Below, one piece after another: positions 11,020-40,958 of a DNA stretch of 64,000 bases. Position 1 is the first letter of the stretch, and every line of letters starts with the position of its first letter. The translations under genes and the position numbers were made by a program. The DNA is taken from assembly GCF_021401245.1 (NCBI RefSeq), contig NZ_JACBFY010000001.1, positions 1 to 64,000 of the forward strand. Direction: 5' to 3'. A model generated the notes under the pieces. That model was given only the letters and a program-made list of their open reading frames with translations. It was not told the origin of the DNA and searched no databases. This DNA comes from Pseudacidovorax sp. NFM-22 (GTDB lineage: Bacteria > Pseudomonadota > Gammaproteobacteria > Burkholderiales > Burkholderiaceae_C).

Positions 11020-12125
11020 CGCCGCAGCACCAGCCAGCCGAAGGCGCCCAGCGACATCAGCGAATACAGAAGGCCCGGCGCCGCCGCCGTGGCCCAGGGC
11101 CACCAGTCACGCAGATTGCCGATGTAGCCGAATACGTTGTTCAGCAGGAAGAAGCTGATGCCGATCATCACGCCGCCGAACACATAGCCGGCGATGCCGC
11201 TCTGGCGGAAGTGCAGGTAGGCGAAGGGCAGGGCCAGCACCACCATCACCAGGCAGGACAGCGGATAGAACACCTTGCGCCAGAACTCGATCTTGTAGCG
11301 CTGGGTGGCTTGGCCGTTGGCGTCCAGGTGGCGCGTGTACTCGAACAGGTCGACCGTGCGCATGCGCTCCGGCTTGAGCAGCGCGACCGCCACCATGTCG
11401 GTGGTCAGGCCCGTCTGCCAGGCCAGCAGCGGCTGGTGAACATTGATCACCTTGGGCGACGTCGTGCCTGGCGCGGTCTGGAACTCCTGCCGCTGGGCGT
11501 TCTGCAGCACCCACCCGCCCGCGACGATGCGCGCCGTGTCGGCCGTGGTCAGCGAGCGCAGGAAGCCGCGGTCGTCGAACTCGAACACGCGCGGCAGCTT
11601 CAGCGTGCCGTCGCGGTCGATGGACACCACGTTGACGGCGAAGGAATGGTCGCCCTGCCGCTCCTTCAGCCAGCCACCCGTGAGGCCGGCCGTCGCCAGG
11701 TAGCCCTGGTAGCGGGACTTGAGCAGCTGCGCCGCACGGTCGGACAACGGCGCCACGTAGTCGCCCACTGCAAAGGTCAGCACCACGAAGCCGAGGCCCA
11801 GCGTCAGCAGCATGCGCAGGGCTCGCCAGGGACCGAGGCCGCTGGTGCGCAGGATCGTGTATTCCGAGCTGCGCGCCAGATTGGCCATCACGAAGATGCT
11901 GCCGATCAGCACCGCGATCGGCAGCAGCTCGTAGAGATGGCTGGGCACCAGCAGCGCGACGTAGAGCAGGGCCTGCGGCAGGCCGTAGGGCGCGACCGTG
12001 CCCTTGCCCACCGAGGACAGCTCGTCCACGAAGTCGAAGAAGAAGAACAGGCTCAGGAAGCCCAGCGTGACGAAGGCGATCGACTTGATCGCCTCGGCGT
12101 AGATCAGGCGGCGCAGCGTTCTCAT
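11016..12125 (-). CDS. lptG: LPS export ABC transporter permease LptG
   Basis: The 369-residue inner-membrane protein starts MRTLRRLIYAEAIKSIAFVT. It has three N-terminal helices, a periplasmic beta-jellyroll (about residues 140-265, including RYKIEFWRKV at its end) and three C-terminal helices, as in LptF/LptG. With LptF and the LptB ATPase it extracts lipopolysaccharide from the inner membrane and passes it to LptC and LptA. It starts 4 bases after the lptF stop, consistent with a single lptF-lptG transcript diverging from pepA. Confidence 0.94.
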   Translation of the reverse strand: MRTLRRLIYAEAIKSIAFVTLGFLSLFFFFDFVDELSSVGKGTVAPYGLPQALLYVALLVPSHLYELLPIAVLIGSIFVMANLARSSEYTILRTSGLGPWRALRMLLTLGLGFVVLTFAVGDYVAPLSDRAAQLLKSRYQGYLATAGLTGGWLKERQGDHSFAVNVVSIDRDGTLKLPRVFEFDDRGFLRSLTTADTARIVAGGWVLQNAQRQEFQTAPGTTSPKVINVHQPLLAWQTGLTTDMVAVALLKPERMRTVDLFEYTRHLDANGQATQRYKIEFWRKVFYPLSCLVMVVLALPFAYLHFRQSGIAGYVFGGVMIGISFFLLNNVFGYIGNLRDWWPWATAAAPGLLYSLMSLGAFGWLVLRR

Positions 12126-27479: not shown

Positions 27480-28724
27480 TCAGCGGCCGTGCTCGAAGAC
27501 GTAGAGCCCGACGTCGATCCGCCCCTCGCGGAAGCCCGCCTCGCAATAGGCCAGGTAGTACTCCCACACGCGGTGGAAGCGCTCGTCGAAGCCCAGCGGC
27601 TGGATCGACGCCCATTGCGCCATGAAGCGGCGGCGCCACTCCGCCAGGGTCAGCGCATAGCTGTGGCCGAAGCGCTGCACCTCGGCCAGCCGCAGGCCCA
27701 CCCGTTCGCCGTGCTCGCGCATCAGGGTCGGCGTGGGCAGCATTCCGCCCGGGAAGATGAAGCGCTGGATGAAGTCGGCACCGGCGCGGTAGCGCGCGAA
27801 GGCCGATTCGTCGATGGTGATCGCCTGCACCACGACGCGCCCGCCGGCTGCCAGCCGGTCCTTCAGCACCTGGAAGTAGGTCGGCCACCAGGTCTCGCCC
27901 ACGGCCTCGATCATCTCGATGGAGACGATGCGGTCGAATTGGCCCTGCACGTCCCGGTAGTCCTGCAGCCGCAGGTCGACGCGCTCGTGCAGGCCGGCCT
28001 GCGCCGCGCGGTCCTGCGCGCAGCGCAACTGCTCGGTGGACAGCGTGAGGCCGGTGACGCGGGCACCGGCCTGGGCGATCTGGCGCGCCAGGCCACCCCA
28101 GCCGCAGCCGATCTCCAGCACCGATTGCTCGGGCGCCACGTCGAGCAGCTCGACGATGCGACCGAGCTTGCGGGCCTGTGCGGCTTCGAGCGTCTCGTGG
28201 TCGTGGGCGTAGATGGCGCTGGAGTACTGCAGGCCCGGGTCGAGCCAGCGCTCGTAGAAGGCATTGCCCAGGTCGTAATGGAAGGCGATGTTGTCGCGGC
28301 TGCCGCTGCGGCTGTTGTCGCGGCGCAGGTGGGCCAGCCGGGCCAGCCAGCGGGCCGGCCGCATGCCGTCGATGGCACCTTGCCACGCGGCCTCGTTGGC
28401 GGCGCCGAGTTCCAGCACGGCCAGCAGGTCGGGCGTGGACCATTCGCCGTCGCGGTAGGCGACGGCCAGGCCCAGGTCGCCCTGCGCCAGCAGGCGCAGC
28501 AGCGGACGCCAGCGGTGCAGCCGGATCAGCGCCTGCGGACCGGGCAGGGCGCCGCGCGCCTCCAGCCGCTCGCCATGGGGCAACTGCACGATCAGGTGCC
28601 CGGCCTTCAGTTGCCTGAGCAGGGGCCGGATGCAGCGACGGGCCAGCAGCGCCGCCAGCAGGCCGGGCCGTCGCGAGTCGGGCGGCGGTGTCAGGTCGCA
28701 GGAGGGATCGAGGGGAGCGGTCAT
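27480..28724 (-). CDS. cfa: cyclopropane-fatty-acyl-phospholipid synthase family methyltransferase
   Basis: The 414-residue protein has the CFA synthase layout. An N-terminal lipid-binding domain spans about residues 1-130; the catalytic part has NIAFHYDLGNAFYERWLD, YSSAIYAHDHETLEAAQ, the SAM loop VLEIGCGWGGLA, SIEMIEAVGETWWPTYFQ and the bicarbonate/active-site region FIQRFIFPGGMLPT. Such enzymes add a methylene or methyl group from SAM to double bonds of membrane lipid acyl chains. It is the last gene of a FAD oxidoreductase-DUF1365-cfa operon driven from the sigma-E-type promoter at 31007-31036. Coupling to DUF1365 is by an ATGA overlap at 28721-28724. A related product such as furan or methylated fatty acids is possible. 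Confidence 0.9.
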   Translation of the reverse strand: MTAPLDPSCDLTPPPDSRRPGLLAALLARRCIRPLLRQLKAGHLIVQLPHGERLEARGALPGPQALIRLHRWRPLLRLLAQGDLGLAVAYRDGEWSTPDLLAVLELGAANEAAWQGAIDGMRPARWLARLAHLRRDNSRSGSRDNIAFHYDLGNAFYERWLDPGLQYSSAIYAHDHETLEAAQARKLGRIVELLDVAPEQSVLEIGCGWGGLARQIAQAGARVTGLTLSTEQLRCAQDRAAQAGLHERVDLRLQDYRDVQGQFDRIVSIEMIEAVGETWWPTYFQVLKDRLAAGGRVVVQAITIDESAFARYRAGADFIQRFIFPGGMLPTPTLMREHGERVGLRLAEVQRFGHSYALTLAEWRRRFMAQWASIQPLGFDERFHRVWEYYLAYCEAGFREGRIDVGLYVFEHGR

Positions 28725-29602
28725 GGCGTGGGGCGCAAGGTGGCGGACGGGCCGGAGGGCAGGGCCGGAGACTCTGCCGGCGACACGGTAACCGGATTCT
28801 GGGGAGGCGCCGGCCGCGCCACCAGGCCGACGCCCTTGAGCCATAGCTGCAGCGCCTCCCAGTGGATGGCGCCGATCACCTTGAGCGTGAGCAGCGGGTG
28901 GCTGAAGAAGGCCCGCAGCAGCGCGGCGTCGCCCAGCGGACGGGCCTGCGCGTCCAGCCGGGCCACCAGCAGCGGGCCCTGGGCGTCCACCGCATCCACG
29001 CCCACCGCCAGCGGGCTGTCGGCGCTGGCGTTCTCCTCGGGCGGGCGGATGCGGAAGCGGTAGTGCATGTCCAGCCCCAGGAAGGGCGAGACGTACAGCT
29101 GCTTGTCGCAGCGCTGCTCGATGACGCCGGCGTGGTCCGCCGCGACGGGCAGCAGGTAACTGTGGCGCTGGCCGAAGGTGTTGTTGACCTCGTAGAGGAT
29201 GGCCTGCAGGCCGCCCGTGGGCGCATCGCAGAAGTACACGCTCAGCGGATTGAAGGCATAGCCGAGGATGCGCGGCATGGTCAGCAGGCGGATGCGCCCG
29301 CCCGTCGGCAGGCCGGCGGCCTGCAGCTGCTGCTCCACATGCGCGCGAGGCCCCTGCGCATCGCCGGCGCCGTAGTCCGGCCAGTGCAGGCTGAACAGGT
29401 TGAAGCGGCCGAGCGAAAAGAGCCGGCTGCGCGCCGCAAGGGCCGGCACGCGGTCGATGTCCAGCAGCAGCGAATACACGCGGTAGCCCAGCCGGTGGCG
29501 CCGCGGCCGCAGGCGCTGGTGCATCACGCGGCCGAGGTACAGCGCCTGTCCGTCGCCCTGTGCGGCGTCGGGCGCGCCAGCGGCCGCCGGACGCCCGCTC
29601 AC
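28721..29602 (-). CDS. DUF1365 family protein
   Basis: The product of 293 residues from GTG 29602 contains ALYLGRVMHQRLRPRRHRLG, DYGAGDAQGP, LLTMPRILGYAFNPLSVYFC, YEVNNTFGQRHSYL and KQLYVSPFLGLDMHYRFRI, the DUF1365 pattern. No biochemical activity is settled for the family, but it is nearly always found between a FAD oxidoreductase and a CFA-type methyltransferase, which suggests a step in fatty-acid modification. The GTG overlaps the stop of the FAD gene (29599-29602), and the 3' end overlaps cfa. An internal ATG (MHQRLRP) 24 residues later is the alternative start. Confidence 0.87.
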   Translation of the reverse strand: MSGRPAAAGAPDAAQGDGQALYLGRVMHQRLRPRRHRLGYRVYSLLLDIDRVPALAARSRLFSLGRFNLFSLHWPDYGAGDAQGPRAHVEQQLQAAGLPTGGRIRLLTMPRILGYAFNPLSVYFCDAPTGGLQAILYEVNNTFGQRHSYLLPVAADHAGVIEQRCDKQLYVSPFLGLDMHYRFRIRPPEENASADSPLAVGVDAVDAQGPLLVARLDAQARPLGDAALLRAFFSHPLLTLKVIGAIHWEALQLWLKGVGLVARPAPPQNPVTVSPAESPALPSGPSATLRPTP

Positions 29603-30984
29603 GCGGCCACCTCGGCCGGCCGGGCGCCGAGGTGGATGCGGCCCGACTCGTTCGCGACCTGCCAGGGCCGGCGCACGCCGCCCAGCGCTTCGGCCACGGC
29701 CAGGCCCGATTGCAGGCCGTCCTCGTGGAAGCCCGAGCCGAAGTAGGCGCCGCAGTACCACACGCGCCGCTGGCCCTGGATCGACCACAGCGACCGTTGC
29801 GCCTCGATGGCGCGCGCGTCGAACAGCGGATGCTCGTAGACCTGCGTGCGGATCAGGTGGTCGCCATGGGGCTCGACGATGGGGTTGAGCGTGACGAACA
29901 GGGGCGTCTTCTCGTCGATGCCCTGCAGGCGGTTCATCCAGTAGGTGACGCAGGGGGCGCCGTCGGTCTGGCGCCGGTCGGACAGGTAGTTCCAGCTCGA
30001 CCAGACGGCGCGGCGCCGCGGCATCAGCGCCGGATCGCTGTGCAGCACCGTGTGGTTGCGCGAATAGCGGAAGGCGCCCAGCAGGCGGCTCTCGTCCCCG
30101 CTCGGGTCCTGCAGCATGCCCAGGGCCTGGTCAGCATGGGCGCCGACGACGATGGCGTCGAAGCGCTCGGGCCACCAGCCCGCGGCCGTGCGGACCCAGG
30201 CGCCTTCGTCGTCGCGGCGCAGCGCCATCACCGGCTGATCGAGGTACAGGCGATCCCGGAAGCCCGCCGTCAGCCGCTGCACGTAGGCGCGGCTGCCGCC
30301 CTTGACGGTGCGCCAGACCGGCCGGCCGTTGACCTGCAGCAGGTGATGGTTCTCGCAGAAGCGGATGAAGGCCTCGGTCGGGTAGCGGCCCACCTGGCCG
30401 GCGGGCGTAGACCAGATCGCCGCCGCCATCGGATAGAGGTGGTCCTCCCGGAAGGCGCGGCCGTAGCCATGGGCGTCCAGAAATTCCTCCAGCGGCTGCA
30501 GGCCGGCCTGGGCCGCGAGCGGCGGTGCCTCGCGGTAGAAGCGCATCAGGTCGCGCAGCATGGCCCAGAAGCGCGGGCGCAGTAGGTTGCGTGGCTGCGC
30601 GAACAGGCCCTGCAGGTCGGTGCCGGCGTATTCGAGCGCGCCGCCGTCCTGGCTGACGGCGAAGGACATGTCCGAGGCCACCGTCGGCACCTCGAGGTGC
30701 GCGAACAGGGCGGTCAGATTGGGGTACGACGGCTCGTTGTAGACGATGAAGCCCGTGTCGACGGGCACATGGCCGCCGCCGGCGGCGGGCGCATCGACCG
30801 TGTGGCTATGGCCGCCGGGGCGCGGTTCGCTTTCGAAGACCGTCACGCGGTGGCGCTGGTTGAGCAGCCAGGCGGCGGACAGGCCGGCGATGCCGCCGCC
30901 GACCACCGCGATGTTCAGCGGCGCGTCCCCGGAGGCGACGGGCGCGGGCGGCAGGCCGGGGGCGACAGGGGTGGTCAGGCTCAT
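29599..30984 (-). CDS. FAD-dependent oxidoreductase (flavin amine oxidase/desaturase-like)
   Basis: The 461-residue protein has the dinucleotide fold NIAVVGGGIAGLSAAWLLNQ near residue 24 and FESEPRPGGHSHTVD. It continues VDTGFIVYNEPSYPNLTALF, WRTVKGGSRAYVQRL and ends with the FAD motif YCGAYFGSGFHEDGLQSGLA. It belongs to the COG2907 group paired with DUF1365 and CFA synthase. A role in oxidising or desaturating a methylated acyl chain is inferred. ATG 30984 was preferred to 31002 because it has GGAGTT upstream and because the promoter -10 is at 31007-31012. It is the first gene of the operon. Confidence 0.88.
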   Translation of the reverse strand: MSLTTPVAPGLPPAPVASGDAPLNIAVVGGGIAGLSAAWLLNQRHRVTVFESEPRPGGHSHTVDAPAAGGGHVPVDTGFIVYNEPSYPNLTALFAHLEVPTVASDMSFAVSQDGGALEYAGTDLQGLFAQPRNLLRPRFWAMLRDLMRFYREAPPLAAQAGLQPLEEFLDAHGYGRAFREDHLYPMAAAIWSTPAGQVGRYPTEAFIRFCENHHLLQVNGRPVWRTVKGGSRAYVQRLTAGFRDRLYLDQPVMALRRDDEGAWVRTAAGWWPERFDAIVVGAHADQALGMLQDPSGDESRLLGAFRYSRNHTVLHSDPALMPRRRAVWSSWNYLSDRRQTDGAPCVTYWMNRLQGIDEKTPLFVTLNPIVEPHGDHLIRTQVYEHPLFDARAIEAQRSLWSIQGQRRVWYCGAYFGSGFHEDGLQSGLAVAEALGGVRRPWQVANESGRIHLGARPAEVAA

Positions 30985-31006: not shown

Positions 31007-31036
31007 CCTATACGGCTGGCGGCGGATTTTGGATTC
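31007..31036 (-). promoter_or_regulatory. sigma-E (RpoE/ChrR-type) promoter of the FAD oxidoreductase operon
   Basis: On the minus strand GAATCC (31036-31031), an 18-base spacer and TATAGG (31012-31007) match the TGATCC-N18-TAA-type consensus known for RpoE of Rhodobacter. The same spacing occurs in the promoters at 31069-31097 and 40929-40958. The start codon at 30984 lies about 15 bases past the expected transcription start. Confidence 0.65.
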
Positions 31037-31068
31037 GTCCTGTCCTACAGGCGATGCAGCGGATGCCG

Positions 31069-31097
31069 TGATCCAATCCGCCGGCGGCAGCGTAAAG
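31069..31097 (+). promoter_or_regulatory. sigma-E (RpoE/ChrR-type) autoregulatory promoter
   Basis: TGATCC (31069-31074), an 18-base spacer and TAAAG (31093-31097) reproduce the RpoE/ChrR consensus exactly in the -35 element. It drives the sigma factor gene itself and chrR, as expected of positive autoregulation. It is back to back with the 31007-31036 promoter. Confidence 0.7.
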
Positions 31098-31106
31098 GCC
31101 TTCATC

Positions 31107-31763
31107 ATGGAAGCCCGGTACCAGCCGTCGAACGTCCCCCCGCCACGGAAGCGTCTGCTGCCCGTGTCCATCGTGAATCTCGCCGACGCCCAAGCCGTAC
31201 TCCCCACCTCTGCCGAACTGTGCGACCTGGTTCGCGCCGTGGCCGAGCGCCAGGACCGTACGGCCTTCGCGGTGCTGTTCAAGCACTTCGCGCCGCGCGT
31301 CAAGACCTACCTCATGCGCGCCGGGGCCGACCCGGATGCCGCCGAGGACCTGGCGCAGGAGACCATGGTGGCGCTCTGGCGCAAGGCCGCGCTCTTCGAT
31401 GCGCGGCAGGCCGGCGTGTCGACCTGGGTCTTCACCATCGCGCGCAACCTGCGCGTGGACCGCTACCGCCGGCAGGGCGGGGCGGTGGAGGTGCTCTCGG
31501 CCGAGCAGGCCGACCTGGATTCCATGCCCGAGGATGCCCCCGCACCGGACGAGCGCCTGCACGCCCGCCGCTGCGAGCACCGGTTGCGCGAGGCGCTGCG
31601 GCGCCTGCCGCCCGACCAGGTGCGGGTGCTCCACCTGTCTTATTTCGAGGACCAGCCGCATGCGCGGATCGCCGACGAACTCGGCATCCCCCTGGGCACG
31701 GTCAAGTCGCGCGTGCGGCTGGCCGTGGCGCATCTGCGCAAGCTGCTGGACGGCCTGGCATGA
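31107..31763 (+). CDS. rpoE: ECF RNA polymerase sigma factor, RpoE (ChrR-partner) type
   Basis: The 218-residue product contains sigma region 2 (AFAVLFKHFAPRVKTYLMRA, AEDLAQETMVALWRKAALFD, ASTW-like VSTWVFTIARNLRVDRYRR) and region 4 (LREALRRLPPDQVRVLHLSY, IADELGIPLGTVKSRVRLAV). It matches the ECF group whose anti-sigma is ChrR, which responds to singlet oxygen in Rhodobacter. ATG 31107 is the only ATG but lies about 3 bases from the expected transcription start; GTG 31164 would give 199 residues and a normal leader. The stop overlaps the chrR ATG (ATGA at 31760-31763). Its probable targets are itself and the two lipid operons. Confidence 0.9.
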   Translation: MEARYQPSNVPPPRKRLLPVSIVNLADAQAVLPTSAELCDLVRAVAERQDRTAFAVLFKHFAPRVKTYLMRAGADPDAAEDLAQETMVALWRKAALFDARQAGVSTWVFTIARNLRVDRYRRQGGAVEVLSAEQADLDSMPEDAPAPDERLHARRCEHRLREALRRLPPDQVRVLHLSYFEDQPHARIADELGIPLGTVKSRVRLAVAHLRKLLDGLA

Positions 31764-32443
31764 CGACGATCCGACATCACCCGACCGACGACATGTTGGT
31801 CGCACTTGCCGCGGGCACGCTGCCCGCCGGCCCGGCGGCCGTGCTGGCCTGCCACGTGGAAACCTGCCCGGCCTGCGCCGGGCGCCTGATGGACCTCGAA
31901 GCCCTGGGCGGCGCCCTGCTGGAGGAACTGCCGGATGCCGGTCTGGCGCCCGAGGCGCTGGCCCTCACCCTGGCCGCCATCGACGCGCCCGCGGCGCCGC
32001 GCGTCGCCCCAGCCTCTCCTGCGCGGCGGGCGCGCGGTCACCGGCTCTCCCGTCCTGAGCTTCCGGCCGGCGCGCACTGGCCGCGTGCCCTGGACGGCTG
32101 CAGCGCCACGCCCTGGCGCTGGATCGGCCCTGGCATGCGGTGGAGCCGCCTGCATCTGCCGCAGGATCCGGCGGCCAACGTCTTCCTGCTGCGCATCGGG
32201 GCCGGCAAGTTCCTGCCGCCGCACACGCACAGCGAACTGGAGCTCACCCAGGTGCTGTGGGGCAGCTTCCACGACGGCCGGGCCCTCTTCGGTCCGGGCG
32301 ATTTCGATGCGGCGGACGGCGATATCCACCACCAGCCGGTGGTGCAGGCCGGCAGCGAATGCATCTGCCTCGCGTCGGTCGACGGCCGGGTGGTGTTCGA
32401 CAGCTTCCTCGCGCGCACGCTGGGATCGCTCGTCGGCATGTGA
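31760..32443 (+). CDS. chrR: ChrR-type zinc anti-sigma factor with cupin domain
   Basis: The 227-residue protein has an N-terminal zinc anti-sigma domain with the HxxxCxxC motif HVETCPAC (around residue 32) and an earlier His (His6 or His7). A linker follows, and then a C-terminal cupin with PPHTHSELELTQVLWG and DGDIHHQP metal-binding histidines. In Rhodobacter, ChrR holds sigma-E inactive and releases it on singlet oxygen or organic peroxide stress, the cupin being needed for singlet oxygen sensing. Coupling to the sigma gene by ATGA fits stoichiometric synthesis. Confidence 0.92.
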   Translation: MTTIRHHPTDDMLVALAAGTLPAGPAAVLACHVETCPACAGRLMDLEALGGALLEELPDAGLAPEALALTLAAIDAPAAPRVAPASPARRARGHRLSRPELPAGAHWPRALDGCSATPWRWIGPGMRWSRLHLPQDPAANVFLLRIGAGKFLPPHTHSELELTQVLWGSFHDGRALFGPGDFDAADGDIHHQPVVQAGSECICLASVDGRVVFDSFLARTLGSLVGM

Positions 32444-32538
32444 CCGGGCGGCACCGGCCGTCCGTTGGGGACGTGCCGGTCGCCGGGGCTTGGCACTTTC
32501 GGCAGGTTCGCCACATCCAGCGGGCAGCTGGATGAAGA

Positions 32539-32553
32539 TGAGAACCACTATCG
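32539..32553. promoter_or_regulatory. putative Fur box upstream of fecI
   Basis: TGAGAACCACTATCG matches the 7-1-7 Fur consensus TGATAATNATTATCA at 10 of 14 informative positions. It lies 115 bases before the fecI-like start, in an AT-richer patch (32530-32570). Iron repression of the fecI-fecR-receptor genes is the expected role. Confidence 0.5.
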
Positions 32554-32667
32554 TTTAAGATGGCAACCCTCCGACACTGCGTGGCAGGGCGGGGCGCGGG
32601 GGCCGTCGTGCCATGGCGTCCGGGGCCTGCCGCGCCATGCCCGCCGACCGTTCTCGCCTCGTTTCTC

Positions 32668-33174
32668 ATGCCTGCCGTCTCCGACTCCGTGCAGCGCCAC
32701 CTCGTGGGCGCGATGTATGTCGAACACCAGGGCTGGCTCCAGGGCTGGCTTCGCCGCAAGCTGGGCAATGCCTTCGACGCCGCCGACCTGACGCACGACA
32801 CCTTCGTGCGGGTGCTCAGCCGCGACGACGCCCCCCACATCCGCGAGCCCCGCGCCTTCCTGGGCACCATCGCCCATGGCTTGATGGTCAACCTGCTGCG
32901 CCGGCGCAGCCTCGAAGCGGCCTACCTGGAGGCGCTGGCCTGCCATGGCGAGGCGGCCTCGCCGTCGCCGGAGGAGCGCGCGCTGGTCGTCGACGCCCTG
33001 GTCCAGATCGATGCGCTGCTCGACGGCCTGCCGGCCAAGGTGCGCCGCGCCTTCCTGCTGCTGCAGCTCGAAGGCCTGACGCATGCCGAGATCGCCGCGC
33101 AACTCGGCGTCTCGGTCAGCTCGGTGCGGCAGTACATCGCCCGGGCCATGCAGAACTGCCTGCTGCTGCGATGA
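32668..33174 (+). CDS. FecI-type ECF sigma factor (iron starvation)
   Basis: The 168-residue protein has FecI features: YVEHQGWLQGWLRRKLGNAF (the HH.WL..WL.RKL.N signature), DAADLTHDTFVRVLSRD, EPRAFLGTIAHGLMVNLLRR, and region 4 AFLLLQLEGLTHAEIAAQLG with SVSSVRQYIARAM. It would direct RNA polymerase to the siderophore receptor gene when the FecR-like partner passes on the signal. ATG 32668 fits the family N-terminus. It overlaps fecR by ATGA at 33171-33174, and a Fur-like box lies upstream. Confidence 0.9.
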   Translation: MPAVSDSVQRHLVGAMYVEHQGWLQGWLRRKLGNAFDAADLTHDTFVRVLSRDDAPHIREPRAFLGTIAHGLMVNLLRRRSLEAAYLEALACHGEAASPSPEERALVVDALVQIDALLDGLPAKVRRAFLLLQLEGLTHAEIAAQLGVSVSSVRQYIARAMQNCLLLR

Positions 33175-34124
33175 CGACGTCGCTCGACCCCGAGGTGGCC
33201 CGGGCGGCGGCGCTGTGGTTCTCCCGCGCCACCTCGGGCGAGTTCGCGGATTCCGACCGCGCGGCCTGGCTGGCCTGGCGGCGCAGCGATCCGGCCCATG
33301 AACAGGCCTGGGCGCAGGTCGAGGCGATCAGCCAGCGTTTCGGCCTGCTGCTGCCGGCGGCCGGCATGGCGGCACTGGCGCGTCCGCGCCCCGAGGCGCG
33401 TCGGCGGGCGCTGCGCGCCATCGCGGCCTTGGGCGTGACGGGCGGTGCCGGCTGGCTGGCGTGGGAGCAGGCCCCATGGCGCGGCGAGCCGGGCCGCTAC
33501 CAGACGGCGACGGGCGAGCGGCGCTCGCTCACGCTCGAGGACGGCACCGCGCTGATGCTGAACACCGCCACGGAGGTGGCCGTCCACATCGACGGGCAAC
33601 TGCGCCGCGTGACGCTGCGCCGGGGCGAGATCCAGGTCCGCACCGCGCGCGACCCGCAGCAGCGGCCCTTCGTGGTGGCGACGCGCTTCGGCGAACTGCG
33701 CCCCATCGGCACGCGCTTCGTGGTGCGGCAGGAGGACGAGGCCGTGCAACTGACCGTGCTGGAAGGCGCGGTGCAGGCGCAGCCCACCCCGGCCGCGGCC
33801 ACGCCGCCGGTACGGGTGGACGCCGGCCGCAGCGTCCGGCTGGACCGCCACGGCGTCGGCCCCGTGCAGCCCGCGCCGGAGAGTGTCGATGCCTGGACCC
33901 AGGGCCTGCTGATGGCCGACGGCATGCGGCTGGCGGACTTCACCGCCGAGCTCTCGCGCTACCGGCCCGGCTTGCTGTCCTGCGACCCGGCCGTCGGCGC
34001 GCTGCGGCTGTCGGGCGCCTTTCCGCTGGACGACACCGACCGCGCCCTGGCGGCGGCCACGCGCGCGCTGCCGGTGCGGGTGCATCGCCTGACGCGCTGG
34101 TGGGTGCGCATCGGTCCCGCCTGA
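33171..34124 (+). CDS. FecR-type sigma regulator/anti-sigma protein
   Basis: The 317-residue protein has an N-terminal DUF4880-type anti-sigma domain (residues 8-55: AAALWFSRATSGEFADSDR, WLAWRRSDPAHEQAWAQVE), one transmembrane helix near residues 83-97 (AIAALGVTGGAGWLAW) and a periplasmic FecR domain (about 105-205: YQTATGERRSLTLEDGTALM). The end contains an STN-like segment. It relays the signal from the receptor's N-terminal domain to the FecI-like sigma. Gene order fecI-fecR-receptor is canonical. Confidence 0.9.
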   Translation: MTTSLDPEVARAAALWFSRATSGEFADSDRAAWLAWRRSDPAHEQAWAQVEAISQRFGLLLPAAGMAALARPRPEARRRALRAIAALGVTGGAGWLAWEQAPWRGEPGRYQTATGERRSLTLEDGTALMLNTATEVAVHIDGQLRRVTLRRGEIQVRTARDPQQRPFVVATRFGELRPIGTRFVVRQEDEAVQLTVLEGAVQAQPTPAAATPPVRVDAGRSVRLDRHGVGPVQPAPESVDAWTQGLLMADGMRLADFTAELSRYRPGLLSCDPAVGALRLSGAFPLDDTDRALAAATRALPVRVHRLTRWWVRIGPA

Positions 34125-34132
34125 TCGGCCCG

Positions 34133-34144
34133 TTTTTTTTTTTT
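34133..34144. repeat. 12-base poly-T tract between fecR and the receptor gene
   Basis: Twelve consecutive T bases lie 8 bases after the fecR stop in otherwise very GC-rich DNA. No stable GC hairpin precedes it, so it is not a normal intrinsic terminator. Such tracts are prone to slippage. Confidence 0.6.
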
Positions 34145-34214
34145 CGACGGGGCCTGTCACTTTCGGCGTTTCGATTGGCAAGGAGGTGAACGACATCATC
34201 TCCAGGAGAAGCCC

Positions 34215-36728
34215 ATGGCCCAGCGCCACCGCCGACCGCGCTCTTGCGCGCCCTCTCGATCCCTGCTGCGCCCGACGGCCCAGGCCGTCATGGCCGCGCT
34301 GGCCCTGCAACTGGCAGGCACCGCCGTCGCCTGGGCGCAGGCGGGGCCCGTCGGCGCGGCGGTGGCCATGCAGCGGGACATTCCTGCCGGCCCGCTGGGC
34401 CGTGCGCTGTCGCTCCATGCAGCGCAGGCGGGCGTCGTACTGTCCTTCGACGCTGCACTCACCGACGGCCTGAGCACCCGCGGGCTCTCCGGCCGCTACA
34501 CCGTGCAGCAGGGCTTCGACGCGCTGCTGGCCGGCACCGGGCTGGAAGCCCTGCGCGCCGCCGACGGCAGCTACGCGCTGCGCAGGTCGCCCACGGCCGC
34601 CCGCAACGGCGCGCAGCAGCAGGCTGGGGCCGCCGCCTCGCTGCCGCCGCTGACCGTCAGCGCCGAGGCGCACAGCGCCGGATCGACCTTCGGCCCCCAG
34701 GCCCGGCGCACTACGACGGCCACCAAGACCGACACGCCCAACATCGAGGTCGCCCAGGCCATCAGCGTGGTCACGCGCGACCAGATGGACGAGCAGGGCG
34801 CCGCGCCCGCGCTGCAGGACGCCCTGCGCTACACGCCGGGCCTGATCGGCACGCGCGGCGTCAACCTCACCGACGACTCGTTCAATGTGCGGGGCTTCGC
34901 GGCAGGGCTGGCCACGTCGTCGAACACACCGGTGTTCCGCGACGGGCTGCGCCAGGCGCCGGCCATGTATGCCTCGACCGTCGAGCCCTATGGACTGGAG
35001 CGCATCGACGTGCTGCGCGGGCCGGGCTCGGTGCTGTTCGGGCAGGTCACGCCGGGCGGGCTGGTCAACGTGGTCTCCAAGCGGCCGACCGCCGACACCC
35101 TGCGCGAAGTCGACCTGCAGGCCGGCAGCCACAACCACCGCCAGCTCGGCCTGGACCTGGGCGGCAAGCTCGACGACGCGGGCGAGTGGACCTACCGCCT
35201 GACGGCCATGGTGCGCGACGCCGACACGCAGACCCATTACATCCCCAACGACCGGCAGTACGTCGCGCCGGCCATCACCTGGCGGCCCTCGGCCCGCACC
35301 TCGCTCACGCTGCTGGCCAGCTACCAGAACACCGACACGGCCTACAACTGGGGCCTGCCGGTCAGCGGCACGCTGCTGCCCAACCGCAACGGCCAGCTGT
35401 CGCGCAGCACCTTCACCGGCGAGCCGGGCTTCGACCGCTACAACACCCGCACCTGGACGCTGGGCTACCTGTTCGAGCACCAGTTCGACGACACCTGGAC
35501 CGTGCGGCAGAACGCCCGCTGGTACCAGTCGGACATGACCTGGGACTCGGCCTATGGCTCGGGCCTGCAGGCGGCCAACCAGCGCCGCCTCAACCGCTTC
35601 GCCTTCATCCGCTCGGACGACTACAAGTCCTTCAACATCGACACGCAGGTGCAAGCCAAATGGCGCCACGGCGTCTTCGAGCACACCACACTGGCGGGCA
35701 TCGACTATGCCGACGTGCCCTGGGTGCGCAACGAGCGCCGCGGCACGGTCGGGGCGCTCGACCTCTATGCGCCGGTGTACGGCTCGGCCATCGTCCCGAA
35801 CTTCCAGCCGAGCCGTGTGCTCAAGACCGATTCGAGCCAGCTCGGCGTCTACCTGCAGGAGCAGGTCAAGATCGACCGCCAGTGGGTGCTGATGGCCGGC
35901 GTGCGGCACGACAGCGCCCGCAGCGACATCACCGGCCGCGTGACCAACGGCACGGCCACCAGCCCGATCACGCCGGTCAACATCCGCGACAACGTCTCGG
36001 CCACCACGGGCCGCGTCGGCGCGGTCTACCTGATGGACAGCGGCTGGGCGCCATACGTGAGCGCTGCCACTTCCTTCGAGCCCGAGGCCGGTGCGCTCGA
36101 CTACAACAACAACGCCTTCAAGCCCACCCGCGGGCGGCAGTACGAGGCGGGCATCAAGTACGAATCGCCGGACAGCCCGGTGTCGATGACGGCGGCGGTC
36201 TTCGACCTGCGGCGCACCAACGTGCTCACCACCGATCCGGACCATCCCGGCTATTCGGTGCAGGCGGGCGAGATCAAGTCCCGCGGCCTGGAGCTGGAGG
36301 CCAAGGCGCGCATCGGCCGCGCCTTCGAGCTGATGGGCGCCTACAGCTACACCGACGCCGAGATCACCCGCAGCAACAACGGCGACCAGGGCACCGCGCC
36401 GCCCGGCGTGCCCCGGCACAACCTGTCGGTGTGGGCCAGCTACCGCCTGCCGCAGGACATCCTGCCCGGCGTGAAGGTCGGCCTGGGCGTGCGCCGCATC
36501 GTCGGCACCAGCGGCTATGTGCTGGGCAGCACGCCCACGCCCGCCGAGCTGCCGGCCTACACGGTGGTCGATGCGCTGATCGGCTATGACCGCGGGCCGT
36601 GGAGCATCACGCTCAACGTGGGCAACCTGTTCGACAAGACCTACGTGCAGTCCTGCTACTACGCGACCACCACCTGCTTCTACGGCGACGGCCGCAACGC
36701 CATCGTGCGCGCCACCTACCGCTGGTGA
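34215..36728 (+). CDS. TonB-dependent siderophore receptor with STN signalling domain (FhuE/FoxA-like)
   Basis: The 837-residue outer-membrane protein has a long signal peptide ending TAVAWAQA (about residue 42). Residues 53-125 form an STN signalling domain (DIPAGPLGRALSLHAAQAGV). The plug follows (about 165-290: VAQAISVVTRDQMDEQGA, FNVRGF, YGLERIDVLRGPGSVLFGQ, PGGLVNVVSKRP), then a 22-strand barrel ending ATYRW. The late cysteine pair in QSCYYATTTCFYGDGRN is typical of hydroxamate (ferrioxamine, coprogen, ferrichrome) receptors. The STN domain implies signalling through the fecR-fecI pair just upstream. A good ribosome site (CAGGAGAAGCCC) precedes ATG. Confidence 0.92.
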   Translation: MAQRHRRPRSCAPSRSLLRPTAQAVMAALALQLAGTAVAWAQAGPVGAAVAMQRDIPAGPLGRALSLHAAQAGVVLSFDAALTDGLSTRGLSGRYTVQQGFDALLAGTGLEALRAADGSYALRRSPTAARNGAQQQAGAAASLPPLTVSAEAHSAGSTFGPQARRTTTATKTDTPNIEVAQAISVVTRDQMDEQGAAPALQDALRYTPGLIGTRGVNLTDDSFNVRGFAAGLATSSNTPVFRDGLRQAPAMYASTVEPYGLERIDVLRGPGSVLFGQVTPGGLVNVVSKRPTADTLREVDLQAGSHNHRQLGLDLGGKLDDAGEWTYRLTAMVRDADTQTHYIPNDRQYVAPAITWRPSARTSLTLLASYQNTDTAYNWGLPVSGTLLPNRNGQLSRSTFTGEPGFDRYNTRTWTLGYLFEHQFDDTWTVRQNARWYQSDMTWDSAYGSGLQAANQRRLNRFAFIRSDDYKSFNIDTQVQAKWRHGVFEHTTLAGIDYADVPWVRNERRGTVGALDLYAPVYGSAIVPNFQPSRVLKTDSSQLGVYLQEQVKIDRQWVLMAGVRHDSARSDITGRVTNGTATSPITPVNIRDNVSATTGRVGAVYLMDSGWAPYVSAATSFEPEAGALDYNNNAFKPTRGRQYEAGIKYESPDSPVSMTAAVFDLRRTNVLTTDPDHPGYSVQAGEIKSRGLELEAKARIGRAFELMGAYSYTDAEITRSNNGDQGTAPPGVPRHNLSVWASYRLPQDILPGVKVGLGVRRIVGTSGYVLGSTPTPAELPAYTVVDALIGYDRGPWSITLNVGNLFDKTYVQSCYYATTTCFYGDGRNAIVRATYRW

Positions 36729-37945
36729 CCGGCGTGCGTCGCCTCGGGCGCGCGCACGTCGTGGCGCTGCACCGGTACGTCGGGCTGCTGATGGCGGCCT
36801 TCCTGGTCGTGGCCGCCGCCACGGGCAGCGTGCTGGCCTTCCGGGACGAGCTGGACGAATGGCTCGCGCCCGAGCTGTTCGTCGCCCGTTCGGCGGCCTC
36901 GGCGCCGCTGCTGGATCCTTTCGCGCTGCGCGCCCGCGTGGCGCAGCAGGTGGCGCCGCAGGGCCGGGTGGATGCCGTGGTGCTCGACCTTCGTCCGGGC
37001 CGGACCGCCCGCTTTCCCGTCGCGCCCAATCCCGACGGCCCCGGTGGCTTTTACCGGCTGGGCTACGACGAGGTGTTCGTGGACCCGCACACCGGCGAGA
37101 TCCAGGGCCGTCGCGCCCGCGAGGCCATCGCCTTCACGGCGCAGCAGGCCGTGCCGCTGCTCTACAAGGTGCACCACAGCCTGGCGTTGCCGGGCATCTG
37201 GGGCACGCTGCTGCTGGGCGTGATCTCGTTGCTGTGGACGCTGGACTGCTTCGTCGGCGCCTGGCTGACCTTTCCCAAGGGCCGGCCCTTCCTGCCCAGA
37301 TGGAAGCCGGCCTGGCAGGTGAAGTGGCGTGCGGGTGCACACCGCGCCACGCTGGACCTGCACCGCGCAGGCGGCCTGTGGCTGTGGGCGGTGCTGCTGC
37401 TGTTCGCCTGGTCGAGCGTGATGTTCAACCTGCGCGAGCCGGTGTTCCGGCCGGTGATGGGCGTGGTGTTTCCCTTCGACGACTCCTGGCGCACCGTGCC
37501 GCTGCGGCCGAAGCCCGTCCTCGCGCCGCGGCTGGACTGGCCGGCGGCCCATGCCGCCGCACGCCGGGCCATGCAGGACATGGCGACCGAAGTCGGCTTC
37601 ACCGTCGACCGGGAGGATCGCCTGCAGCTCGACCGCCGCCGCGGCGTCTATGCCTACCTGGTGCATTCGACGGTGGACCTGCGCAGCGACGCCGGCAACA
37701 CCGCGATCCTGATCGACGCCGACACGGGCGTGCCGATGGGCCGCTGGCTGCCCACCGGCGGCCCCTCGGGCAACACGGTCAGCAACTGGATGGGCGCGCT
37801 GCACATGGCGCAGGTCTTCGGTCGGCCCTACCAGGTCTTCGTCTTCGTGTTGGGCATCGCCGTGGTCGTCATCACCATCACCGGCGTGATGGTGTGGCAG
37901 AAGAAGCGCCGGGCGCGCGCCCTCAGCCGCGCCAGGCGAGCGTGA
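36725..37945 (+). CDS. PepSY-associated membrane protein (siderophore reductase-like)
   Basis: The 406-residue product begins at GTG 36725, overlapping the receptor stop (GTGA). It has the PepSY_TM pattern: LHRYVGLLMAAFLVVAAATG (first helix), periplasmic PepSY segments (DEVFVDPHTGEIQGRRAR), KVHHSLALPGIWGTLLLG, LDLHRAGGLWLWAVLLLFAW, and a last helix before WQKKRRARA. Conserved membrane histidines could bind heme. Such proteins next to ferrioxamine or pyoverdine receptors (FoxB, FpvG type) reduce or release iron from siderophores in the periplasm or membrane. Its 3' end overlaps the convergent DUF2177 gene by 23 bases. Confidence 0.88.
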   Translation: MTGVRRLGRAHVVALHRYVGLLMAAFLVVAAATGSVLAFRDELDEWLAPELFVARSAASAPLLDPFALRARVAQQVAPQGRVDAVVLDLRPGRTARFPVAPNPDGPGGFYRLGYDEVFVDPHTGEIQGRRAREAIAFTAQQAVPLLYKVHHSLALPGIWGTLLLGVISLLWTLDCFVGAWLTFPKGRPFLPRWKPAWQVKWRAGAHRATLDLHRAGGLWLWAVLLLFAWSSVMFNLREPVFRPVMGVVFPFDDSWRTVPLRPKPVLAPRLDWPAAHAAARRAMQDMATEVGFTVDREDRLQLDRRRGVYAYLVHSTVDLRSDAGNTAILIDADTGVPMGRWLPTGGPSGNTVSNWMGALHMAQVFGRPYQVFVFVLGIAVVVITITGVMVWQKKRRARALSRARRA

Positions 37946-38339
37946 GCCGCGTGGCCACGGCCGAGGCCACGCCGGTCACGAAGGTGCCCCAGATCAGGTC
38001 GGCCACGGTCACCTTCCAGGGCCAGTCCTTGAGCGTGGCCTGGTTGGTGAGGTCGTAGGTGGCGTAGCAGATCAGGCCCAGCAGCGCGCCCATGGCCAGC
38101 GCCTGCAGGGGCTTGCGCGCCTCCAGGGCCGGGCCGATGGCGAAGACCACCATGCCCACCAGGTACAGCAGGTAGAAGATGACCGCAGGCGCCACCGAGA
38201 AGCCGTCCGCCATCAGGTGGCCGATGGACGGCCGGTACAGGCGCGAGGCCATGGTGCCCAGCCAGATGGCGTCCAGGCCCAGGAAGACGACGGCCGCGAT
38301 GCCATAAGCGGTGAGGTAGTGGGAGAAGGGCAGGGTCAT
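37923..38339 (-). CDS. DUF2177 family membrane protein
   Basis: The 138-residue protein has four transmembrane helices and the DUF2177 marks FLGLDAIWLGTMASRLYRP, IGHLMAD and GLICYATYDLTNQATLKDWP. Function is unknown; it commonly accompanies the sigma-E/ChrR lipid genes. ATG 38339 (MTLPFSHYLT) was chosen over 38381. It is the last gene of the operon starting at 40886. The last 23 bases overlap antisense with the PepSY gene, so transcripts from the two operons converge through each other's ends. Confidence 0.85.
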   Translation of the reverse strand: MTLPFSHYLTAYGIAAVVFLGLDAIWLGTMASRLYRPSIGHLMADGFSVAPAVIFYLLYLVGMVVFAIGPALEARKPLQALAMGALLGLICYATYDLTNQATLKDWPWKVTVADLIWGTFVTGVASAVATRLTLAWRG

Positions 38340-38377
38340 GGTCGGCGGGCGGCAGAGGGTGGATGAATGGGGGGCGC

Positions 38378-39040
38378 TCAACGCAGGCGATAGCTCAGCA
38401 GCTTGCCGCCTTCGAGCGTGCCGTCCAGGCCCACCCAGCGGCCGCTGCCGTCGTACCAGAGGTCGATGCGCTGCTTGAGCGCCACGATGCGCCAGCGCTG
38501 GGCTTCGACCGGCTGGCCGCGCACGTCGATGCTGGCAGGCGGCAGCGGCTCGATGCGCACCGCCTCCCGCTTGCCGGTCTGGGCGTTGAGCAGTTCACGC
38601 TGCTTCAGGATCGCGCGGTTCCAGTAGGCGAAGCTCATGGCGCAGCCGGCCAGCAGCGGATCGCCCGGCTCCAGCCGCACGGCGAGCTTGTCGCCGTTGT
38701 CGTCGGTGTCCGCGGTGAGCGACTGGAGGCAGTCGCCCTGCCAGCGCTCCTGCGCCTGGTGGCGGTAGCGGTAGACGGGGATGCCCAGCAGCTTGACGTC
38801 GAAGCGGGCCTCGCTGCGCAGGCTGCGGGCGCCGCCGTCCTGCGTCTCCAGCGTGAAGACATGCTGGCCGATGGGCTTGCCGTCGAGGGATGCTTCGAAG
38901 GACCAGACCTGCTGCGCCCAGGCGCCCAGGGGCAGCAAGAAGGCCAGCAGCCCTGCCAGCGCCGTGCGACTGCGCAGCAAGGATGCGCTGCCGCTGCGTC
39001 CGGGAAGTACCCGATCAGTCGCGGCCATCGCCGTGTTCAT
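38378..39040 (-). CDS. DUF6134-like periplasmic protein
   Basis: The 220-residue protein has an N-terminal signal segment (LLAFLLPLGAWAQ, cleavage near residue 42) and a beta-rich mature domain: WSFEASLDGKPIGQHVFTLE, RSEARFDVKLLGIPVYRYRH, ERWQGDCLQSLTADTDDNGD. This matches the DUF6134 (older DUF3108-like) group of periplasmic proteins found with DUF1295 and CFA-type genes. A lipocalin-like lipid-carrier role is possible but unproven. The ATG overlaps the stop of the DUF1295 gene (39037-39040). Confidence 0.78.
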   Translation of the reverse strand: MNTAMAATDRVLPGRSGSASLLRSRTALAGLLAFLLPLGAWAQQVWSFEASLDGKPIGQHVFTLETQDGGARSLRSEARFDVKLLGIPVYRYRHQAQERWQGDCLQSLTADTDDNGDKLAVRLEPGDPLLAGCAMSFAYWNRAILKQRELLNAQTGKREAVRIEPLPPASIDVRGQPVEAQRWRIVALKQRIDLWYDGSGRWVGLDGTLEGGKLLSYRLR

Positions 39041-39825
39041 GCCGCACGCCGCCGGGGCGGCCAGGGAATGAAGGCGCTGGTGCGCGCCACGTAGTCGCGG
39101 TAGGCCGGCCGCCGGGCGCTCAGGTCCTTTTCGAGCAGCGTCACGCCCGACACGCGCAGCAGCAGGAAGGTGATCAGCACCGGCGAGACGAAGCACCAGA
39201 GCGCGCCCGCGCCGCCGGCCTCCAGCGTCATCAGCGCCAGGCCCCACCAGACGCAGCTCTCGCCAAAGTAGTTGGGATGGCGGGTGTAGTGCCACAGGCC
39301 CTGGTCCATGACGGCATGGCCGCCCCGGCGCCGGGCGCGGAAGCCGGCCATCTGGGCATCGGCCACCGCCTCGAACACGATGCCGAAGAGCGCCAGCGCG
39401 GCACCCAGCAGGTCGAGTGCGCCGAAGGGGCGGGTGCCCGCCAGCCCGGCAAGCAGCGGGGCCGAGAGGATCCAGCCCAGCACCCACTGGAGGCCGAACA
39501 CGATGACCAGGCTCTTCCAAGCGAAGGCCGCGCCGTGGCGCTCGCGCATCTCGGCATAGCGCCGGTCCTCGCCATGGCCCCAGTTGCGCCAGCTGATGTA
39601 GACGCACAGCCGCAGCGCCCAGGCCAGGGCCAGGCCCAGCATCACGAGGCGGCGGGTCGGGTCGGCGGCCGGCGTGCCCGCGGCATAGGCCAGCGCCGGC
39701 ATCGTGATCAGCCAGGGCCAGATGCGGTCGGCCAGGCTGGCGTCGCGCTTCCACAGGCTGGCCAGCCAGCCGGCCAGCGCGATCGGCAGCGACACCAGCA
39801 GGCCCAGAAGCGCGGCATGCACCAT
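39037..39825 (-). CDS. DUF1295 family membrane oxidoreductase-like protein
   Basis: The 262-residue protein has six or seven helices and the steroid-5-alpha-reductase/DUF1295 signature: SLADRIWPWLI, LALAWALRLCVYISWRNWGH, FGIVFEAVADAQMAGFR and WHYTRHPNYFGESCVWWGLA (residues about 170-190), the NADPH-binding-type region. Relatives reduce enone double bonds or methylate isoprenylcysteine. In this operon it probably acts on an acyl-chain double bond (inference). It follows the CFA-like gene after 14 bases and overlaps the DUF6134-like gene. Confidence 0.87.
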   Translation of the reverse strand: MVHAALLGLLVSLPIALAGWLASLWKRDASLADRIWPWLITMPALAYAAGTPAADPTRRLVMLGLALAWALRLCVYISWRNWGHGEDRRYAEMRERHGAAFAWKSLVIVFGLQWVLGWILSAPLLAGLAGTRPFGALDLLGAALALFGIVFEAVADAQMAGFRARRRGGHAVMDQGLWHYTRHPNYFGESCVWWGLALMTLEAGGAGALWCFVSPVLITFLLLRVSGVTLLEKDLSARRPAYRDYVARTSAFIPWPPRRRAA

Positions 39826-39839
39826 GGCGGCAGTCCTTC

Positions 39840-40886
39840 TCAGCGCTTCTGGAACAGGTAGTGGCCCACCCACCAGCGCTGGCCTTCGTCCCAGCCGAAG
39901 AGCTCCTCGACCGACAGGAAGAACAGGCGCCAGCGCATCCACCAGCGGTCGGCCTCGTTGGCGCCGTAGGCGGCCGCGATGACGGGCAGCAGTTCGGGCC
40001 GGTGGGCGTCCATGTTGTCCAGCCAGGCGCGGGCGGTGCGGGCGTAGTGCCGGCCGTCCCAGCGCCAGCGGTCCACCAGCCGAAGGTCGTCCTGGCACTG
40101 CATCGCCAGGTCGTCGCTGGGCATCATGCCGCCGGCGAAGAAGTAGCGCGTCATCCAGTCGCTGGCGTCGCGCTCGACGAAGGGGTAGGGCGCCTCCTTG
40201 TGCACGAACACATGCATGAAGAAGCGGCCCTCGGGCGACAGCCAGTTGGCCACGCGGGCGAAGGCGGCCGGCCAGTTGCGCAGGTGCTCGAACATCTCCA
40301 CCGACACGATGCGGTCGAAGCGCTCGTCGGTGTCGAAGGCGTTGACGTCGCAGGTGATGACCTTGAGGTTGCACAGATGCCGCCGCGCGGCCTGGCCCTC
40401 GATGTAGGCCCGCTGCGAGTGCGAATTGGAGACCACCGTGATCGGGCTGGCGGGGTAGCGCGCCGCCATCCACAGCGACAGCGAGCCCCATCCGCAGCCC
40501 AGCTCCAGGATGCGCTGGCCGTTGACCAGTCCGGCGCGCTCGCAGGTGGTGGTCAGGGCGGCGGCTTCGGCGGCGTCCAGGTCCTCGATGCCCGGGCCCC
40601 ATTCGCAGCAGCTGTACTTGCGGTGGGCGCCCAGCACGCCGCCGAAGAAATCGGCCGGCACTTCGTAGTGCTGCTCGTTGGCCTTCTCGGGCAGCGGCGC
40701 GAGCGGGGCGGTGCGCATGCTGGCAAGGAAGTCGCGGGTCTGCCGGGCCACGGCCTCGGCGTCGCCGCACTGCAGCTCCTCGATGCGCTCGCGCAGCAGG
40801 CGGCGGATGCCGAGGCGGATCACGCTGTCGGGCACATAGCCCTGTTCGACCCAGCGGATGGCGGTGGCGGTGTTGTCACGGGGCAT
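39840..40886 (-). CDS. CFA synthase-family SAM methyltransferase, second paralogue
   Basis: The 348-residue protein has the CFA-like catalytic core with SAM loop ILELGCGWGSLSLWMAARYP, YEVPADFFGGVLGAHRKYSC in place of the usual YDLGN motif, VSVEMFEHLRNWPAAFARVA and a region TRYFFAGGMMPSDDL. It lacks the long N-terminal lipid-binding domain and is closer to the coclaurine N-methyltransferase-like branch than to the cfa gene at 27480-28724. It is the first gene of the operon 37923-40886, whose promoter (40929-40958) has the same sigma-E pattern as the other lipid operon. Substrate is unknown; an unsaturated acyl chain is the best guess. Confidence 0.88.
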   Translation of the reverse strand: MPRDNTATAIRWVEQGYVPDSVIRLGIRRLLRERIEELQCGDAEAVARQTRDFLASMRTAPLAPLPEKANEQHYEVPADFFGGVLGAHRKYSCCEWGPGIEDLDAAEAAALTTTCERAGLVNGQRILELGCGWGSLSLWMAARYPASPITVVSNSHSQRAYIEGQAARRHLCNLKVITCDVNAFDTDERFDRIVSVEMFEHLRNWPAAFARVANWLSPEGRFFMHVFVHKEAPYPFVERDASDWMTRYFFAGGMMPSDDLAMQCQDDLRLVDRWRWDGRHYARTARAWLDNMDAHRPELLPVIAAAYGANEADRWWMRWRLFFLSVEELFGWDEGQRWWVGHYLFQKR

Positions 40887-40928
40887 GGCGGTGTTCGTGT
40901 CGCGGTGGGACGAAAGCGGGTGTGTCCG

Positions 40929-40958
40929 TCTGTACGCAGGCTGCGGGCTTTTGGATTT
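40929..40958 (-). promoter_or_regulatory. sigma-E (RpoE/ChrR-type) promoter of the second lipid operon
   Basis: On the minus strand AAATCC (40958-40953), an 18-base spacer and TACAGA (40934-40929). The flank AATCCAAAA is shared with the promoter at 31007-31036. The start codon of the CFA-like gene is about 35 bases beyond the expected transcription start. Confidence 0.55.

Follow-up and report, generated by a model that had tools for sequence, protein, structure and literature searches.

A predicted ECF11-type sigma factor regulon with two lipid operons in Pseudacidovorax sp. NFM-22

Results

Genes at the locus

The locus described here lies in the first 64,000 nucleotides (nt) of contig NZ_JACBFY010000001.1 of Pseudacidovorax sp. 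NFM-22; this whole stretch, at its full length, is referred to as the window. It comprises a gene pair for a sigma factor of the extracytoplasmic function (ECF) type and an anti-sigma factor, two operons of predicted lipid-modification genes, and three promoter sites of one form (P1 to P3), one before each of these gene groups. Together they make up a candidate regulon of the ECF11 (RpoE-ChrR) kind.

The sigma gene (31107..31763, plus strand; Pfam Sigma70_r2/r4_2) has an uncertain start, taken here as ATG 31107, with GTG 31164 as a possible alternative. Its RpoE/ECF11-like product is of the group IV type with regions 2 and 4, and the best solved relative is Rhodobacter (R. sphaeroides) RpoE (2q1z, E 2.6e-37). 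The adjoining gene (31760..32443, plus strand) codes for the anti-sigma factor ChrR, which scores 178.8 bits against the TIGR02451 cut-off of 124.5. In an alignment to 2z2s, with equivalent residues judged by eye, it keeps the zinc-ligand positions of ChrR, reported as His6, His31, Cys35, Cys38 and His141, His143, Glu147, His177 (PMC6852236). Family resemblance, and that only, suggests the singlet-oxygen-type label that an earlier reading of the DNA letters (the sequence-only reading) gave to this sigma factor.

The first lipid operon is on the minus strand and consists of a ufaD-like gene for a flavin adenine dinucleotide (FAD) amine-oxidase-type protein (29599..30984; Pfam Amino_oxidase, NAD_binding_8), a ufaO-like gene for a DUF1365 protein (28721..29524, start estimated; Pfam E 6.7e-76) and a ufaM-like gene for a CMAS-type methyltransferase (27480..28724; Pfam CMAS E 9.5e-83). 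By gene content and order we assign this set to the furan fatty acid pathway, with putative orthology to RSP2144, RSP1091 and RSP1090.

The second operon, likewise on the minus strand, begins with a gene for a methyltransferase of the coclaurine-N-methyltransferase type (39840..40886; PDB 6gkv E 1.2e-66, family alignment of 17 sequences). It is followed by genes for a DUF1295 protein (39073..39825; Pfam E 2.1e-64), a probably exported DUF6134 protein (38378..39040; Pfam E 1.2e-45) and a predicted DUF2177 membrane protein (37923..38339; Pfam E 8.7e-48), all three with estimated starts. The structure model of the DUF6134 protein has a predicted local distance difference test (pLDDT) score of 89.2, and in fold comparison it resembles lipid-carrier half-barrels. 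The protein AT4G33110 is of the coclaurine-N-methyltransferase type. FufM is 37.87% identical to it (PMC10940516), and we infer that the methyltransferase of the second operon is FufM-like; its orthology to RPA0924 is putative, as is an activity on 9M5-FuFA.

Instead of furan fatty acids, the two operons could make an ordinary cyclopropane or other branched lipid. Pfam places both the UfaM-like and the FufM-like methyltransferase in CMAS, and the likeness to UfaM, UfaD, UfaO and FufM is one of family and gene order. We nevertheless find such a product unlikely. The order FAD oxidase-DUF1365-methyltransferase is that of ufaD-ufaO-ufaM in R. palustris (RPA2571-2570-2569; PMC7380195), and the UfaM-like protein stays far below the equivalog cut-offs for cyclopropane fatty acid (CFA) synthase (266 of 600 and 237 of 400 bits).

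Three promoter sites of one form

P1 (31069..31096, plus strand, TGATCC-N16-CGTAAA) precedes sigma-chrR, P2 (31009..31036, minus strand, GAATCC-AAA-N13-CGTATA) the ufaD-ufaO-ufaM-like operon, and P3 (40931..40958, minus strand, AAATCC-AAA-N13-CGTACA) the methyltransferase-DUF1295-DUF6134-DUF2177 operon. Their common element is ATCC-N16-CGTA(N)A, with nnATCC as -35, a spacer of 16 bases and CGTA(N)A as -10, which is the same form as the published RpoE-ChrR (ECF11) promoter. The sequence-only reading had placed the three sites correctly, before the sigma gene and the two lipid operons, and its gap of exactly 18 bases holds for the boxes as it drew them; the -10 box starts two bases earlier, giving N16. 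It had also spoken of ten genes, where the count is 2 + 3 + 4 = 9.

P2 ends 24 nt and P3 44 nt before the respective gene start. The -10 box of P1 ends only 10 nt from ATG 31107. This implies a very short leader unless the true start codon lies deeper in the gene, GTG 31164 being one candidate. With a promoter of ECF11 type (TGATCC-N16-CGTA) before its own gene, the sigma factor is predicted to be autoregulated.

Three chance look-alikes would be the simplest alternative, and the earlier pattern leaves room for it: with up to three mismatches it yields 51 matches against 35.6 expected, a number reached in 2 of 100 shuffles, which is weak evidence, barely above chance. The element ATCC-N16-CGTANA, in contrast, is found 3 times in the window where 0.06 matches would be expected, and none of 100 shuffles gave 3 or more; the whole 6.42-Mb genome holds 9. 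Since this pattern was drawn post hoc from the three sites themselves, an independent test was made with published promoters of the RpoE-ChrR type. A matrix of 16 sites (all five Shewanella sites, PMC4336711, and 11 of 18 Pseudomonas syringae rows, PMC5507510, the poorest motif matches being excluded) was run over 127,946 window positions and placed P1 at rank 1 (20.3 of a maximum of 21.0), P3 at rank 3 (12.9) and P2 at rank 5 (12.1). When all published Shewanella and P. syringae sites were kept (23 sites), P1 reached the maximum of 19.4, P3 16.3 and P2 16.0. These are window ranks 1, 2 and 3, with a clear gap to rank 4 at 12.5. The sites are also conserved in relatives, which likewise contradicts a chance origin. 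The sites are real and far above chance, and coincidence can for practical purposes be dismissed.

Conservation and the link with ChrR

The sigma factor is present in 7 of 15 genomes of the genus (E 1e-60), and ChrR exceeds its cut-off in 22 of 250 genomes of the family. Among the best 80 of 580 confirmed loci in a relative search with the methyltransferase, Variovorax, Pseudorhodoferax and Rhizobacter are the closest named relatives, and Roseateles comes just after them. The first 28 loci fetched mostly share one layout: 18 have ufaM-ufaO-ufaD, divergent sigma-chrR and then, facing these, DUF2177-(DUF6134)-DUF1295-methyltransferase, where DUF6134 was not detected in three and one locus is cut by a contig end. 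Four others carry the ufa genes behind methyltransferase and DUF1295, two are without the methyltransferase, and four have sigma-chrR without any mapped lipid gene. Across these 28 loci the motif precedes sigma in 25 of 28, ufaD in 20 of 24 and the methyltransferase in 21 of 22 mapped cases, the single exception being a locus cut by the stretch end.

In a larger set of 139 fetched loci (L055-L193), NNATCY-N16-CGTA was sought between 300 nt upstream of each gene and 60 nt into its sequence. Where the stretch includes ChrR, the motif is present at the methyltransferase gene in 42 of 44 loci, compared with 8 of 68 where it does not (Fisher P 3e-20); the corresponding figures for ufaD are 43 of 58 and 0 of 39. 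Duplicates slightly inflate these counts (L113 = L063 and L130 = L064 are the same contigs, judged by length and site, and L060 and L178 belong to one genome), and genes with less than 60 nt of upstream sequence were excluded (L060 and L109 for the methyltransferase, L160 for ufaD). Where sigma was mapped together with ChrR, its motif is present in 59 of 68 loci. The two methyltransferase misses with ChrR are L185 and L190. For 10 of the 15 loci at which ufaD lacks the motif, this gene sits behind methyltransferase and DUF1295 and does not necessarily need a promoter of its own. Eight motif-positive loci have no ChrR in view. Six of them, labelled Variovorax (four), Pseudorhodoferax and Rhizobacter, may have the sigma gene elsewhere in the genome; L178 has ChrR in the same genome (L060), and L145 is a contig labelled Flavobacteriaceae. 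The lipid genes are also clustered at loci of Methylophilaceae, Nitrospira and Planctomycetes, which show neither the motif nor, within the stretch seen, ChrR.

L075, L077, L170 and L171 are second ChrR-sigma pairs of genomes that bear a lipid-linked pair as well, and no such promoter precedes their sigma genes. In eight relatives (L071, L076, L078, L087, L164, L165, L166, L172), DUF2177 has its own TGATCY-N16-CGTA site near the start.

Plasmids offer further arrangements. Those of Mesorhizobium, Shinella and Rhizobium combine sigma-ChrR with FAD, DUF1365, methyltransferase, DUF1295 and DUF2177 genes, partly rearranged: DUF1295 and methyltransferase come after sigma-chrR on the same strand, and both sigma and the FAD gene are preceded by motifs. 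Only the Mesorhizobium stretch has an annotated intact UfaM-type gene. Alongside the Mesorhizobium cluster (L266), lipocalin and fasciclin genes also have an upstream motif (2047-2074 and 11585-11612). On a Caballeronia plasmid, sigma and anti-sigma genes come before the lipid genes, with sites before DUF1295 and the FAD gene and none found before its sigma. An Acinetobacter plasmid with lipid genes and no sigma in view gave only one match, with a 15-base spacer and away from the lipid genes.

The motif, its conservation and its rarity beside the same lipid genes without ChrR in view uphold the claim of the sequence-only reading that one ChrR-type sigma factor serves all operons, gene number apart. 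On these grounds, the prediction that this sigma factor drives all three operons is well supported.

Two types of -35 element

The sequence-only reading had pointed out that both minus-strand sites, P2 and P3, share AATCCAAAA. This is part of a second -35 type, in which TG is missing and AAA follows, and it marks a real promoter sub-type here. In the home genome ATCCAAA-N13-CGTA occurs twice, exactly at P2 and P3. Across the genus there are 16 such sites in the 7 genomes with the sigma factor against 1 in the 8 without, and a reversed-pattern control gave 0 matches. The lone site in a sigma-less genome (L224:1501) adjoins a different ECF sigma gene and points away from it.

A survey of 153 distinct promoters (57 sigma, 47 methyltransferase, 41 ufaD, 8 DUF2177) reveals a trade-off: AAA follows the -35 in 6 of 99 promoters with TG and in 41 of 54 without. 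The same holds within ufaD (1 of 9 against 28 of 32) and within the methyltransferase (3 of 29 against 13 of 18). Kinship inflates the raw Fisher P of 1.9e-19; a Pagel-type test that bounds the rates gives approximate P values of 0.006 for ufaD and 0.0016 for the methyltransferase. Sigma promoters do not show the trade-off, as 4 lack TG and 0 of these have AAA. In six plasmid stretches outside the set (L266-L271) the rule breaks down: AAA is seen after 1 of 11 TG sites and after 1 of 6 sites that lack TG, and some of the latter may not be promoters. The trade-off may therefore hold only in this group of relatives. We found no description of the nnATCC-AAA type in excerpts of PMC4336711, PMC5507510 and PMC3817407, or among the titles and abstract openings given by a literature search on ECF11 promoter motifs.

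The absence of TGATCC at P2 and P3 raises the possibility that only P1 belongs to this sigma factor and that the other two are read by another ECF sigma factor or the housekeeping one. Both sites reach only 12-13 of 21 on the 16-site matrix, the level of chance places in the window, and this counts against common control. We still consider a division of this kind improbable: P2 and P3 are among the top 3 once all 23 published sites are used, their -35 type tracks the sigma factor through the genus, the ufaD motif is confined to loci with ChrR in view, and some relatives have TGATCC at the same promoters.

The regulon beyond the locus

The regulon had been described as local, which is too narrow. 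The distant gene tspO (Pfam TspO_MBR; L243:947-1468 in the home genome) is preceded at -65 to -67 by TGATCC-N16-CGTAAG in 6 of 6 genus genomes with tspO (E 1e-20), the boxes being constant while the spacers vary. All six have the sigma factor, and no tspO was found in the seventh sigma-bearing genome (G002) or in the eight sigma-less ones. This co-occurrence may simply reflect kinship. Separately, an MHYT-GGDEF gene has a strong site in two relatives (L255, L256) and a weaker one in the home genome (L246); in P. syringae, the corresponding sigma factor also drives a diguanylate cyclase (PMC5507510).

An inserted cassette

A 5.5-kb cassette of FecI, FecR, TonB receptor and PepSY genes (32444..37922, plus strand), outside the regulon, follows chrR and separates sigma-chrR from the methyltransferase operon. 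It is present in the window, L055 and L056 and absent from L057, L058 and L059. Because of this insertion, P3 is now 10 kb from sigma. Within the cassette, a Fur-box-like stretch at 32534 agrees at 14 of 19 positions with a Fur-box consensus, a score equalled once elsewhere in the window.

Discussion

We think it likely that the locus belongs to an ECF11 (RpoE-ChrR type) regulon, in which the sigma factor controls its own operon, both lipid operons and tspO, and in which the lipid operons form one pathway; the interpretation in the sequence-only reading was mostly right. In the unstressed cell, ChrR would hold the sigma factor. A damaging oxidant would make ChrR release it, and the free sigma factor would direct RNA polymerase to ATCC-N16-CGTA promoters. 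Transcription from its own promoter would amplify the response, and further targets would be ufaD-ufaO-ufaM, the operon of the methyltransferase and, away from the locus, at least tspO. The two lipid operons probably serve one pathway. Here, UfaM, UfaD and UfaO would produce a monomethyl furan fatty acid on membrane phospholipids, to which the coclaurine-N-methyltransferase-type enzyme would add a second methyl group, as FufM does. The DUF1295, DUF6134 and DUF2177 proteins may carry out further pathway steps or act as lipid carriers.

Some further observations weigh against this model. The motif is missing before sigma in 9 of 68 loci (L075, L077, L082, L170, L171, L183, L187, L188, L191); the first five have no mapped lipid genes, whereas the last four have some. 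ChrR falls below the strict equivalog NF051881 (cadmium/peroxide/UV responsive ChrR) with 158.6 of 300 bits; as NF051881 concerns one sub-family only, the window ChrR is simply not assigned to that sub-family. The link between the second methyltransferase and FufM runs via enzyme type.

The inducing signal could be superoxide, an organic peroxide or lipid damage and not singlet oxygen, a serious possibility that we place only somewhat below even. In Stenotrophomonas maltophilia, rpoEc-chrR affects tolerance of superoxide and not of singlet oxygen (PMC11832516), which also tells against our model. Against a signal other than singlet oxygen, both the R. sphaeroides system (review PMC6852236) and PSPTO_1043 of P. 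syringae (PMC5507510) respond to singlet oxygen, the latter to tert-butyl hydroperoxide as well.

Beyond this, we tentatively put forward a broader scheme, which we hold to be rather less probable than its opposite. TGATCC and nnATCC-AAA may be interchangeable -35 elements that swap repeatedly at the same promoter, so that enzyme promoters could be tuned apart from that of sigma. The set of CFA/UfaM, UfaD, DUF1365, coclaurine-type methyltransferase, DUF1295 and DUF2177 might be one ancient oxidant-response pathway for (dimethyl) furan fatty acids in bacteria and green algae, with DUF6134 as a periplasmic lipid carrier.

The RpoE-ChrR kind of system is known; fresh here are the second -35 type, the probable joining of the two lipid operons into a single furan fatty acid pathway, and the predicted membership of tspO. 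The outcome is a conserved regulon with a precise promoter rule, whose two lipid gene groups may help to build one protective membrane lipid. Testable roles are thereby offered for the families DUF1295, DUF6134 and DUF2177; in a green alga, singlet oxygen induces members of two of them. Should the -35 trade-off hold, it would refine ECF11 promoter prediction; ECF11 sigma factors are also parts in engineered switches.

Comparison with known systems

The R. sphaeroides RpoE-ChrR system (ECF11) resembles the window in its sigma-ChrR pair, whose ChrR has the zinc-ligand positions, and its core regulon includes furan fatty acid genes (PMC6852236, PMC7380195). There, however, ufaM (RSP2144) and ufaD-ufaO (RSP1091-1090) are at separate loci, whereas in the window the ufaD-O-M-like genes, the FufM-like gene and three DUF genes flank sigma and the two lipid promoters are of the nnATCC-AAA type. 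In P. syringae, PSPTO_1043/1042 uses the same promoter form, supported by chromatin immunoprecipitation sequencing (ChIP-Seq) and quantitative reverse-transcription PCR (qRT-PCR), and orthologues of cfa, RSP_1090, RSP_1091 and phrB are present; unlike here, the lipid genes lie away from sigma and a photolyase operon is in the regulon (PMC5507510).

The S. maltophilia locus rpoEc-chrR-chrA with smlt2375-2367 also has a divergent sigma-driven lipid cluster with two CFA-type enzymes and an FAD oxidoreductase, but as one nine-gene operon that includes a desaturase and a lipocalin (PMC11832516). Without chrR this cluster is up 165-697-fold, an increase that is gone without rpoEc (PMC11832516). Chlamydomonas is a eukaryote, and its regulator is SAK1 and no sigma factor. 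Its SAK1-dependent singlet-oxygen response nonetheless resembles the present regulon in gene content, as the CFA1, CFA2, DUF1365, DUF1295 and DUF2177 genes are all induced, CFA2 being listed also as CPLD27, coclaurine N-methyltransferase (PMC4067076).

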